From Alviniconcha marisindica (Eukaryota; Mollusca; Gastropoda; Provannidae), in NCBI GenBank assembly GCA_018857735.1, contig JABMCL010002254.1, positions 1,398,001 through 1,462,000 on the forward strand: a stretch of DNA of 64,000 bases, given 5' to 3'. Shown in pieces: positions 7,505-61,100 of this stretch. How positions within the stretch are numbered: position 1 is the stretch's first letter; each line of letters starts with the position of its first letter. The notes beneath the pieces are model-generated. The model ran no database searches. It was not told the DNA's origin and saw only the letters and a program-made list of their open reading frames with translations. The translations under genes were made by a program, and so were the position numbers.

Positions 7505-7738
7505 TCCTCACTGATAATGTCTGTTCTGTCTATAATGGTCACCGGATGTTGTCTTTCTTGTCCATAATAACGACGTAACGCTGTCTGTCCTGTCGATAAT
7601 GCTGATGTGATGCTGTCTGTTCATACTGATGACGTGACGCTGTCTGTCCATGCTGATGACGTGACGCTGTCTGTCTATGCTGATGACGTGACGCTGTCTG
7701 TCCATGCTGATGACGTTGTGCTGTCTGTCCCGCTGCAG
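7505..7738 (+). repeat. 27-bp intronic minisatellite abutting a splice acceptor
   Basis: The unit gctgatgacgtgacgctgtc tgtccat repeats about six times. The last copy is modified to gctgatgacgttgtgctgtc, then a pyrimidine stretch and CAG, which is the acceptor of the exon at 7739. The unit contains CTGATGAC, which fits a branch-point consensus, so each copy is acceptor-like. Confidence 0.85.
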
Positions 7739-38898
<31,160 letters not shown>

Positions 38899-40107: not shown

Positions 40108-40583
40108 ATTGATTGATTGATTGATTGATGATCGCTTATATAGCGTTATTCTCCGCTCTCTTGAGCAGACTCACTGCGTTCGCATATGAGTGACTAGCTT
40201 TTTATAGCGCGTTTTTTTTTTAAAGATCCACCGAAGTGGTGTACTTAAGCGATGGCATGGCTGGTGCCACATGAAACTGCTGCCGTCTCGGCGCAAGTTC
40301 TGTGTACACTATACAGCCATGCATTATGTCACTTCGTGCAAAGCCACATACGTCAGGTGTATGCGTGTTCAGCTGTAACTTGCCACCTGCACTTTCGGTA
40401 GAATGACCAGAATCTTTTATGTGTTACTGCGGTAACACGGGGGTGGAACGGATACCGAAATAAGAGTCGGCACAGAAAGTTGACCCTGGAGAAGAAAATC
40501 TCCCGCCGCTCCTGCAGGGATTCGAACTCGCAACCTTTCAATCACGAGTCTGGCGCTCTAGCCACTGAGCTATCCCCACTCCC
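40108..40583 (-). mobile_element. tRNA-derived SINE, copy B
   Basis: The - strand head (40583-40500) reads gggagtggggatagctcagt and gttgcgagttcgaatccctg, A- and B-box-like. It is followed by a body sharing gtcaactttc and gtgtgcgat-region sequence with copy A. The 3' end is aacgctatataagcgatcat followed by an atca tetramer tail (five units). It sits inside a minisatellite, which marks it as an insertion. Confidence 0.8.
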
Positions 40584-41659: not shown

Positions 41660-42170
41660 GATCTACACATCCACATGGCCCACTTTCAGAGCCAGGATCT
41701 ACACATCCACATGGCCCACTTTCAGAGCCAGGATCTACACATCCACATGGCCCACTTTCAGAGCCAGGATCTACACATCCACATGGCCCACTTTCAGAGC
41801 CAGGATCTACACATCCACATGGCCCACTTTCAGAGCCAGGATCTACACATCCACATGGCCCACTTTCAGAGCCAGGATCTACACATCCACATGGCCCACT
41901 TTCAGAGCCAGGATCTACACATCCACATGGCCCACTTTCAGAGCCAGGATCTACACATCCACATGGCCCACTTTCAGAGCCAGGATCTACACATCCACAT
42001 GGCCCACTTTCAGAGCCAGGATCTACACATCCACATGGCCCACTTTCAAAGCCAGGATCTACACATCCACATGGCCCACTTTCAAAGCCAGGATCTACAC
42101 ATCCACATGGCCCACTTTCAGAGCCAGGATCTACACATCGTCTTGGCCGAGTTTCAGAGCCTGGATCACT
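41660..42170. repeat. minisatellite, 36-bp unit, about 14 near-identical copies
   Basis: ccacatggcccactttcaga followed by gccaggatctacacat. There is almost no divergence except two copies with caaagcc and a decayed last copy, so the expansion is recent. The 203-codon frame of 12-residue repeats (QSQDLHIHMAHF) is open only because 36 is a multiple of three. Confidence 0.97.
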
Positions 42171-53695: not shown

Positions 53696-55091
53696 CTACA
53701 AGATTAGACGTTGCAGACAAGAGGGAAGGCAGAATTAAATCACAATGACCTGAAATACTATCAATACTCAAAATGCAACCAATAAGACTGCTTTTTTGTA
53801 TCTGGCAGTGGGGTGGGGGGGGGGGGGGGGGGGATTTTATGTTAATTCCTCAAACTGCTGTATCTGAAAAGATTTAACCCCTTACTATGGCCCTAATAAG
53901 TCCCTTACTATGAACAACTGAAACAAAGACGAGAACACTGCCAGAGTCAACAGACCTTTCCCGTAGTGACATGGACATCACACCATAGTCAACAGACCTT
54001 TCCCGTAGTGACACGGACATCACACCGTAGTCAACAGACCTTTCCCGTAGTGACATGGACATCACACCATAGTCAACAGACCTTTCCCGTAGTGACATGG
54101 ACATCACACCATAGTCAACAGACCTTTCCCGTAGTGACATGGACATAACACCATAGTCAACAGACCTTTCCTGTAGTGACATGGACATAACACCATAGTC
54201 AACAGACCTTTCTTGTAGTGACATGGACATCACACCAGAGTCAAGGCCAGTGCTGCCCCCTGGTGACTGGAGTCGTTGCTGTTGAAGGTTGTCAATTTCG
54301 CGCTGTATTGCCTGAAAACAATAATGAAATCATCACACATTTCACAATTACTCCAGCACACCTTTCACAATTACTCCAGCACACCTTTCACAATTACTCC
54401 AGCACACCTTTCACAATTACTCCAGCACATATTTCACAATTACTCCAGCACACATTTCACATAAACTCCACCAGAGATATATCTGTGAGGATGCTATTAT
54501 TAAAGACATCATATAAACACAACAGAGAACTGACTTGCCTTCAGTAAACCCCCACCTGGCATGCAAGTAAATACAAGCTATAGAAACTCCACCAAAGGTA
54601 CCTCTTCCAGAGTTTAGAGGCTGGAGCTCTGGTGGAGTTTCTGTGCCTTGTACCTACTCACAGGCCAGTGAGAGTCACCACTGGGGATTCAGGTCTCTTG
54701 TTGTGACCTCTTTCAATGCTGCCATCTCCCTCTCTTTGTCGATTCTATTATTAGCAGTTTGTCAGGCCAGCCATAAGTCTGTCACTTCAGACATGCCATA
54801 AGTCTGTAACTCCTGACAAGCCATAAAACAGTAACTCCAGACAAGCCATAAGATAGTAACTGCAATAGTTTGTACTGCTTTACTAGCAATCATTTGTACA
54901 CACTCTCTTTTTTTCCTTTATTTTTTTTGGCCAAAAGACAACAGTAAGAACACCCAACCTTAATAAACCCATTGTTCAAACTGAAACGTTCACAGGAAAA
55001 ACTTTGAAGAAGGTGCCAATGGGCAGCATGTTCGAAAATCCAGTTTGGGTTTTACATCAGTCACTGAGGACATCTCTCTCTTTCTCCCCCC

Positions 55092-58100: not shown

Positions 58101-61100
58101 CTGACCCGGCGGAAGGAGAAGAAGCAGGAAGCCCGGTGTCCCCTGTCAGGCCCCTCAGTGTGCCGTCCTCCGCACTGCTGGCGATGCCGTGTCTCTTCAA
58201 GGCGGCGTCAGAAACGGCGCCCTGCGCCCATCTAGGACTAGTCACAGACTCCTCCCTCAGTCCTGAAGCAGCACCGCTGTGGGGAACGGGCGAGCTGTGG
58301 GTGGCGGTGAAAGTGACGGGCGACCCCCTCACGGACCCCTTGCCGGCGATGACGGTGACGGGCGACCCGCTGCTGGAGGAGCCGGACCCGGCGCGCGTCA
58401 TGGTGGGCGAGGCGGAGCGGGCACGCTGCAGCTGACTCAGGAACGGGGACGAGCGGTGCCGAGACCTCTCCAGCAGCTGCATCATGCGGTTGTGCTCCTG
58501 CCGCAGCTTCTCAATCTCATTCATGATGTCGGCGGACTGCGGGGAGGCCGGCGCTCCAAAGTCCTCCCGCAAGCCGTCGCCTCGCCGTCTCCCCGTTTCT
58601 GCGGCGAACAAGGCGGGGCTGAGTCTGTCGCTGCCGTCAGAAGGGGCGGGGCTGGGGGTCAGGCCGTAGTCACCCGCTCTCGCGCGCCAAGCCGCTCTGT
58701 GGTGGGCTTCAGAAGAAAAGAGGTCATCGTCAGAGAAGGAGGAGTCGTGATGAACGTTGCCCCACTGGCCGGGCACGGTGAGTCGAGAGCGAGACAATCC
58801 CTCCACACTCTCGTCCAGGCGGTAGCTCAGCTCTCCTCCGTGACATCGGCGTCTTTCGCTGGGGCTGCTCTCCAACCCTGCATCGGCACCATCAGGGCCA
58901 GCGCCGACGTTGAGAGGTGATGCCATCAGGGCCAGCGCCGACTTGATAGGTGATGCCATCAGGGCCAGCGCCGACGTGAGAGGTGGTGCCATCAGGGCCA
59001 ATGCCGACGTGAGAGGTGGTGCCATCAGGGCCAATGCCGACGTGAGAGGTGATACCATCAGGGCCAGCGCCGACTTGAGAGGTGATGCCATCAGGGCCAA
59101 TGCCGACGTGAGAGGTGATGCCATCAGGGCCAGCGCCGACGTGAGACGTGTCCTCACGGCGCGGTGACCTGGGAGGGACGACGACGGTGGGCCCACTCTC
59201 CAAATGCATCACGCGGTCTGATCGCAGGACTTCCGCTGACTCCTTCACGGTCTCGCTGCGTCTGAAGCTCAGCTCGCCTCCCGCTTCCGGCTCTTCCTCT
59301 TCTGACTGTCGACGTGCTCTTCTCTCTGCACCACGTCCTGCTGTAGCCCGGAGGGCACGGACAGAATCTGTAAGGCCTTCACCTTCACCCGACCTGGAAC
59401 CTTGACTTACATCAGACCCCCGCTGACCTGCTGACCTGGGAGAGTAGGCGGCGTCATCCTGACCTCTCAACAGCTGACTGACGGCTGTGACCTTAGCAAG
59501 CAGGCGGTCGGTGTCCTCGCCGCCTCTCAGAGCCGAAGGTTGTGTGGGCAGAGCCTGGACAGCAGAGGACTCCTCACGTCCTGGCAGGCGGGGTGCTGTT
59601 GCACGGTCTCGTGACGAGGAATCAAGCGCAGAAACTGGTTCTGTAGACTCGTACTGCGAACTGCGGTCAGCTCCTGGTGGCACAGCACGACTGCACGGGT
59701 CGGGAGAAGGCGCAAAGTCCGGCTGGTCAAGCCTGCTGGAGGCGGAAGCGCCTGACCAACGGGCGGAGTCTCGTTCCGCAGCAGCTGATGCCGTGAGAGC
59801 TGATGCAGCAGAGCCTCCAGAAGGGTCTGCTCTTCCCTTCCGTCCTTTGGACCTCCGGCTGCTGCACCAGGAGTCTTCTCCACGAGACGACAAGGCCGAC
59901 ATGAGGCCGTCTTCAGGGAGTTCCGGTTCTGCGCTTCTGACGGAAGCAGGTCCGGGCGCATCAGACTCCTGTGCTTCAGTGAACGACGGAACAGGTTTCT
60001 CACCAAGTGCAGTGTGCTCTTCAGACTGCCCGGGGCGTGGAGAACGTGGATTTTCACCGCCAGGAAGCGTCTCAGTGTTGGTTAACACTGGTTTCCGTTT
60101 TTCAGGCAGCCTCGGAGAACCTTCCGGCACCTTCCTGCTGGCCGGTGTCTGCTGACCGAGGGCCGCCTGTTTTGACTCCCCACCGGACACCGGTCGTCTC
60201 ACTTTCACCGCAAACCGCTGGACGTTGTCCACAAAGACCCCGGGTCCCGACACGGCCCAGCGGGAGACGGTGGAGTCCGGCGGCCCGCGCGGGGACTGCC
60301 AGTGGGACGGGGCAGCGTCAGCTGAACGGCCCGTGCCGGTCCTCGCCGTACGGTCCTGCTCGTCCTGCAGTCCTGCCGGCTCGCCTCGCCCTTCTGACGG
60401 ACTGAGCGGCTCGTCCGGCGACAGGCCCCGCCGGCTCGGTGGCGTCTGGGGCGTGTCGTCGGACAGCCTCTGGACTCTCTGACCGCTGCAAGCACACGAC
60501 AAACCGTTCTCAACAGTCCGTGTTTTGTGCATCCCTTTGCATGTTTAATTGTGGCTGTGCTTTTCATTCTTTCATCCGCTCATTAGCAAGCAACGGGGTT
60601 GGTTGTTACACAAGTTGCATTTTGATACCACTCCCTTCCAATCATCCCAATGTGTCGCTGTAAGTGTCAGCAGTAAACAATTCTGCTCAAACGTAGAATC
60701 ATTTTCATAACAACAAACCATGCCAACCAGCCAAATGGTTTGTTAAAAACATTCATAGTAAGCAGTTGACAACTAAAGTGAGAAACAACACACCTAACCA
60801 CTGAGAAAACTACCATTCATCTTCCCTCCAAGCAGACAGACAGTCACTAGATAGACAGGTAACACCCACTGTAAAACCTCTACCATCCAAGTAGACAGAC
60901 AGTCACTTGATAGAGATCAGGTAACACCCACTGTAAAACCTCTACCATCCAAGCAGACAGACAGTCACTTGATAGAGATCAGGTAACACCCCCTGTAAAA
61001 CCTCTACCATCCAAGCAGACAGACAGTCGCTTCATACAGATCAGGTAACACCCCCTGTAAAACCAAGCGGATTTCACCACAAGAAAAAAAATAATTCATA

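Follow-up and report, generated by a model that had tools for sequence, protein, structure and literature searches.

Tandem copies of splice junctions in a synaptotagmin gene and other genes of a snail probably belong to the class known as mirages

The window analysed here (64,000 nt; C210:1398001-1462000, from an assembly of 817.6 Mb in 2806 contigs) carries on its + strand an ortholog of the SYT14/16 synaptotagmins (SYT in the following). Among the best 120 of 753 hits, its C2 region was 95% identical to a protein of Batillaria attramentaria, the top match, and 86% identical to one of Pomacea. The exons E1 to E6 and the alternative exon E0 join into a single open frame with GT-AG introns, and the product contains two C2 domains and matched synaptotagmins of known structure. 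The tail of E0 aligned with ortholog P0001 (35.5% identity across 76 residues); a comparison of E0 with solved structures gave no match. A membrane isoform has two additional exons, a and b. Spliced at the exon-proximal sites, the protein is collinear over E1 to E6 with six snail orthologs (predicted proteins), and the exon-nearest sites are therefore the conserved ones. The exception is Haliotis P0008, which has five additional residues precisely at the E3/E4 junction, so that site choice can vary there. The collinearity supports the exon-proximal site as the real one in SYT, where the initial annotation had taken the outermost or innermost sites to be those still spliced; the other copies may be used at some level.

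On the - strand a kinesin/StARD9-like gene starts within the window, the name being our judgement from its kinesin motor exon. The arrangement seen in SYT had been claimed for this gene too, at 53945-54236. One frame of its 42-nt unit is free of stops, and in Batillaria the annotation treats the matching start as coding sequence (P0121 ends ...LDSGVMSLTFQE), so the repeat may be a coding one. Another tandem repeat of this gene (58880-59150, - strand) lies within a long open frame and may be coding. Elsewhere in the window we noted a 36-nt array at 41660-42160 with two relatives on contig C1120 (70-71% identity) and, by eye, tRNA-like SINE ends at 30300-30600 and 40200-40580, at which neither ARAGORN (bacterial code) nor Rfam at gathering scores found anything; Rfam at gathering scores returned nothing in the window as a whole. 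The features are collected in Table 1.

Table 1. Exons, arrays and junction ladders (positions in the window; those of k4 are window-based and lie outside it)
Feature	Positions	Strand	Basis
27-nt array ending 8 nt before exon a acceptor	7518..7730	+	array finding
Exon a (membrane isoform)	7739..7935	+	tblastn of ortholog P0002, boundary analysis
TG-rich array in which intron-end copies (CTGACC...CTTGCTGTGTGTG) recur as far as exon b acceptor	10550..11731	+	copy test
Exon b	11732..12081	+	tblastn of orthologs, boundary analysis
E0, probable alternative first exon; 5' end not fixed by homology	24444..25527	+	ortholog P0001
Exon E1, first C2 domain	32097..32267	+	spliced frame, ortholog alignment, tblastn
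E2 acceptor ladder, copies of CCTTATGTTACAG + GTACGAGTCAT (intron end + exon head)	32541..32770	+	array finding, copy tests
Exon E2	32763..32871	+	spliced frame, ortholog alignment, tblastn
E3 intron-end copies, 45-nt array	33105..34283	+	array finding, copy tests
Exon E3	34284..34441	+	spliced frame, ortholog alignment, tblastn
Two-copy repeat resembling E4 exon head	34565..34644	+	inverted copy at 35815-35870, 89% over 56 nt
E4 acceptor ladder, 54-nt, TTTTCAG + CATGACGATACTGGGTTTGGACATGTC	35877..36563	+	array finding, copy tests
Exon E4	36564..36753	+	spliced frame, ortholog alignment, tblastn
Exon E5, second C2 domain	37725..37937	+	spliced frame, ortholog alignment, tblastn
E5 donor ladder, exon tail GATTGGATGGTTCTCACTGG + GTAAGG repeated	37911..38485	+	array finding, copy tests
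Exon E6 with stop codon	38798..38898	+	spliced frame, ortholog alignment, tblastn
42-nt repeat at exon edge in kinesin/StARD9-like gene; candidate for a donor ladder or for a coding repeat	53945..54236	-	open frame, Batillaria annotation
Kinesin exon k4	145606-145494	-	copy tests

Tandem arrays were located in SYT at 32541-32770, 33185-34279, 35877-36456 and 37911-38418. For 12 SYT junctions, 50-nt junction queries were aligned to the adjoining intron, with the 99% level of shuffled queries as cut-off; these junction-centred tests were added because a shuffle test with 40 nt of exon only misses short exon parts (the score was reached by 8/300 shuffles for E2 and by 129/300 for E3). The procedure recovered copies of the acceptor with the exon head at E2, E3 and E4, and of the exon tail with the donor at E5; at the remaining eight junctions no spanning copies were found at the shuffle level. 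The E5 donor has four spanning copies (scores 29 to 73, shuffled maximum 28), one of them identical at 27/27 exon bases, and its exon-only 40-nt score was reached by 0/300 shuffles; read-through past this donor meets a stop after 23 nt. At the E2 acceptor there are five spanning copies, each with 8 to 11 nt of exon and with scores of 22 to 43 (25 at most for shuffled queries), and at the E4 acceptor six copies, four of them spanning, the best of which (30) scores barely above the shuffled maximum of 28. The E3 acceptor is accompanied by 17 intron-end copies (best score 42, shuffled maximum 26), two of which reach exon bases; an outlying one at 33112-33142 carries 10/11 exon bases. The number of SYT junctions counted as copied depends on the threshold: 2/14 at score 30, 3/15 and 3/14 at score 28, and 4/12 at the shuffle level, the only test in which E3 scores as a junction copy.

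The initial annotation had thus rightly read the units at 32530-32762 and 35878-36563 as intron end plus exon head, the latter just above shuffles, and those at 37938-38485 as exon tail plus GT donor. Two other junction copies that it named held for the intron end: exon bases are reached by only two of the copies at 33120-34283, and the array at 10550-11731 repeats the end of the intron before exon b (score 36, positions -21 to -3) without exon sequence. A third, at 24090-24443, lies before E0, the 5' end of which homology does not fix, and is therefore a candidate. For the array before exon a the likeness of the unit to the intron end is visual only (copy-test score 22, weak). At 32380-32403 the E1 tail is repeated over 24 nt, in a copy that ends short of the junction. 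In the E3-E4 intron, inverted segments resembling the E4 exon head (34565-34644 and 35815-35870) flank a 31-nt array.

Beyond SYT we mapped exons in the flanking genes of contig C210, i.e. the kinesin/StARD9-like gene (- strand) and AKT, both from typed vertebrate proteins, and a third gene, mapped from P0123-P0125, whose orthologs bear PF15324, which we take to be TALPID3. Two unlinked genes, on contigs C630 and C1170, were chosen for exon density among the 124 kinesin matches listed and mapped by family matches; codon-based exon finding served for leads only. The most extensive ladder was that of kinesin exon k4, the acceptor of which is preceded by 15 copies of acceptor plus exon head, spaced by 52 to 58 nt in 13/15. 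In their exon part 29 to 33 bases are identical of 31 to 33 aligned, and the copies starting at 146267, 145996 and 145944 are identical to the true junction at 51/51 positions. Use of the AG-bearing decoys would introduce a stop in 12/13 cases and an in-frame insert in one (-54 nt), and misuse should therefore be costly. A single extra copy was found in several cases: the k4 donor (40/40 identical), the k3 acceptor (34/35 identical) and AKT q2. Besides the q2 acceptor, those of TALPID3 t2 and t7 and of C1170 y4 are copied; in this unlinked kinesin gene the copy comprises the entire 50-nt junction (score 74). None of the ten C630 junctions is copied (0/10), and the matches at exon b, k1, t9 and t16 are intron-only tracts. 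Two candidate C-terminal AKT exons, at C210 ~234050 and 248204 (window-based, outside the window), both match the AKT tail. On a separate contig (G000:C2278:142786-148463) there are four same-strand matches to a myosin-head stretch (HMM 119-154, presumably the P-loop region), three of them with stops; they would be alternative exons, mirages or duplicated fragments of exons.

Pooled over the six genes, four of which lie on one contig stretch (C210), a spanning copy was present at 10/90 internal junctions, in 10/47 introns, 5/6 genes and 2/3 contigs: SYT 3/14, kinesin 3/16, AKT 1/18, TALPID3 2/26, C630 0/10 and C1170 1/6. Decoy ladders from tandem duplication across exon-intron borders, as initially proposed for SYT, are thus supported in four of the five other genes as well. 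The copies extend ~10 to 33 bases into the exon (the queries hold at most 33), and many units, though not every one, retain AG or GT (k4 13/15, E5 5/5 and, among aligned copies, E4 3/4, E3 0/2 and 2 of the 3 above threshold at E2). Control queries from exon interiors found copies in 20/1880 trials and those from intron interiors in 286/902. Junction copies are commoner than exon-interior ones (Fisher one-sided 3.4e-7; 7/76 vs 18/1600 without SYT, 7.4e-5; trials from the same exon depend on one another) and rarer than intron-interior ones, in a comparison where half of each junction query is constrained exon. AKT contributed 13 of the 20 exon-interior copies (13/360 trials), a larger share than in any of the other five genes. 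Earlier control runs gave, for introns and exons respectively: SYT (score 30) 144/210 and 3/320; another run 64/105, 62/116, 29/135 and 2/240, 7/270, 11/300; TALPID3 108/225 and 6/480; C630 and C1170 9/100, 20/60 and 0/240, 0/160.

The pooled count omits four TALPID3 junctions with poorly scoring predicted sites (t11 donor, t12 acceptor, t14 donor, t15 acceptor), two of which had spanning hits; with all included TALPID3 stands at 4/30. Omitted too were kinesin k8 (half masked), an unmapped exon before k3, and the outer boundaries of the terminal exons; two kinesin 'introns' may therefore contain an exon. With queries of exon sequence only, exon heads were copied upstream at 7/45 and downstream at 1/45 exons, exon tails downstream at 2/45 and upstream at 1/45 (direction alone is no evidence), and mid-exon segments upstream at 1/34 and downstream at 0/37.

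The junction rate lies between those of introns and exons, as a spill-over from the introns predicts. We give a probability of roughly 80% to the explanation that the ladders are mirages, as they are called in amphioxus, made by a general turnover of minisatellites that spills over junctions, with intron-side copies surviving as the exon-proximal site stays in use. In a genome as rich in local tandem duplications as the part sampled, introns would fill with minisatellites and some duplications would by chance cover a splice junction, the spanning segment being duplicated by slippage or unequal exchange. If the spliceosome still chose the exon-proximal site (the last acceptor or first donor), and with it the shortest exon, as a rule of exon definition would have it, the intron-side copies would be tolerated for that reason: they would become silent intron, longer by a unit, and the protein would stay unchanged. 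Sites that are closest across the exon are described to pair preferentially in large introns, and those closest across the intron in short ones (PMC9225289). Pairing across the exon in large introns fits acceptor and donor ladders alike; three ladders lie in introns below 500 nt (E1-E2, 495 nt; k4-k5, ~473 nt from the coordinates; C1170 y3-y4, 402 nt), where pairing across the intron would favour the wrong copy. For the three k4 decoys that equal the true site at all 51 positions, nearby sequence alone cannot explain the choice.

Of 316.5 kb of sequence, with N positions excluded, 32.5% consists of minisatellites (period 10 or more). For the four genes on C210 (SYT, kinesin, AKT and TALPID3; C630 and C1170 were left out) an array came within 20 nt of 15/74 junctions vs 31.8 (sd 4.8) expected after rotating the arrays within the introns, with P values for as few or fewer of 0.036, 0.046, 0.058 and 0.173, respectively. 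For the main SYT isoform, where nearly every intron end had been said to touch an array, the figures were 4/14 vs 8.9 (sd 2.3) for arrays of any period. Minisatellite coverage in SYT falls from 0.82 at 101-200 nt to 0.28 at 1-15 nt on the acceptor side and from 0.44 to 0.14 on the donor side; between the same distances array coverage drops on both sides in each of the four genes, the drop being strong for SYT and AKT and weak at the acceptors of kinesin and TALPID3. Enrichment of arrays at junctions was accordingly rejected in favour of depletion, and the special tie of arrays to splice sites that the initial annotation had proposed is not supported; the ladders at junctions thus form the margin of a general process. 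This makes it improbable that splice junctions are themselves hot spots of tandem duplication, in an undescribed mode of intron growth. The excess of copied acceptors over donors (8/45 vs 2/45, one-sided p 0.045; 6/38 vs 1/38 without SYT, p 0.054) may hint at something in the 3' end of the intron, but intron interiors are copied more often than junctions, with the reservation on the junction queries made above, and intron gain from mirages has been proposed before.

A regulatory role, in which selection would keep repeated acceptors or donors near junctions for alternative splicing or efficiency, seems slightly less probable again. Many decoys keep AG or GT, above all at k4 and E5, and a C. 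elegans minisatellite is reported to be over-represented near alternatively spliced regions (PMC4039745); young duplicates would, however, retain AG/GT without selection, arrays are depleted at junctions, and 12/13 of the k4 decoys would truncate the protein. Still harder to sustain are mobile elements or introners that inserted with their own splice sites and expanded: some units are dispersed, judging by the C1120 relatives of the array at 41660-42160, but the copies contain the gene's own exon sequence, and in the one ladder searched (query 35877-36640, E4) the array matched only itself in 817.6 Mb, in a search that skips very common words, with no dispersed near-identical copies carrying splice sites. 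Chance likeness of splice consensus or pyrimidine tracts to minisatellite units, suggested by the intron-only matches and the borderline E4 score, is the least credible of all and already excluded for the strong cases by the E5 shuffles and by exon-side identities of 27/27 (E5), 33/33 (k4), 22/22 (k4 donor) and 18/18 (k3).

Tentatively, and at odds slightly short of even, the spill-over of minisatellites may be extended to the genome and probably to relatives of this snail: junction-spanning minisatellites would touch about one in ten junctions and one in five introns, as a routine lengthening of introns under the exon-proximal rule, and the 51-nt-identical decoys of k4 would mean choice by position alone. 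Identical tandem splice sites provide a direct natural test of exon definition, since they share their local sequence and are told apart by position only. Should mirages prove widespread in snails, they would be a by-product of minisatellite-rich genomes and not a lancelet curiosity, feeding intron growth, cryptic splicing and errors of gene prediction.

Related systems are known. Intron gain by tandem duplication of AGGT (PMC3443670) likewise shapes gene structure by tandem duplication near splice-like sequence, but it makes a new intron from exon, whereas the snail copies sit in existing introns and leave the SYT protein unchanged. Minisatellite expansion also alters gene structure through the internal tandem repeats in human segmental-duplication genes (De Grassi and Ciccarelli 2009; PMC2812944), the outline and abstract of which do not mention junction copying. 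A polymorphic intronic minisatellite of a gastropod, the 27-bp unit in intron 3 of the abalone TSSK1-like gene (PMC6905558), is presented in passages without a description of junction copying. Among the open-access papers listed, judged mostly by titles and abstract openings, no report of junction copying in a mollusc was found. The initial annotation knew of no named repeat class of this kind and suspected an undescribed mode of intron growth; both points are answered by amphioxus, where mirages have been named and a link to intron gain has been proposed (PMC3087553, PMC3902484). They were described in Adh3, the globins BflGb6 and BflGb9 (PMC3087553, PMC3902484) and TnC, with a similar case in PGBD5 (PMC3902484), as minisatellite-like tandem duplications that take in an exon-intron boundary at the 5' or the 3' end, their units measuring 10-72 bp (Adh3) to 150-160 bp (PMC3087553, PMC3902484). 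Many of these units, though not all, contain AG/GT, and splicing there is apparently undisturbed. The snail junction arrays probably belong to this class: the unit spans the exon-intron boundary at 10/90 junctions, both boundary types are duplicated (8 acceptors and 2 donors), and AG/GT is retained by many units but missing from others. They differ in that they occur in a caenogastropod mollusc and in several unrelated genes, where about one third of the sampled sequence is minisatellite. Lancelet mirages were known before; new here is that a snail has them too, in some cases with decoys that are exact.
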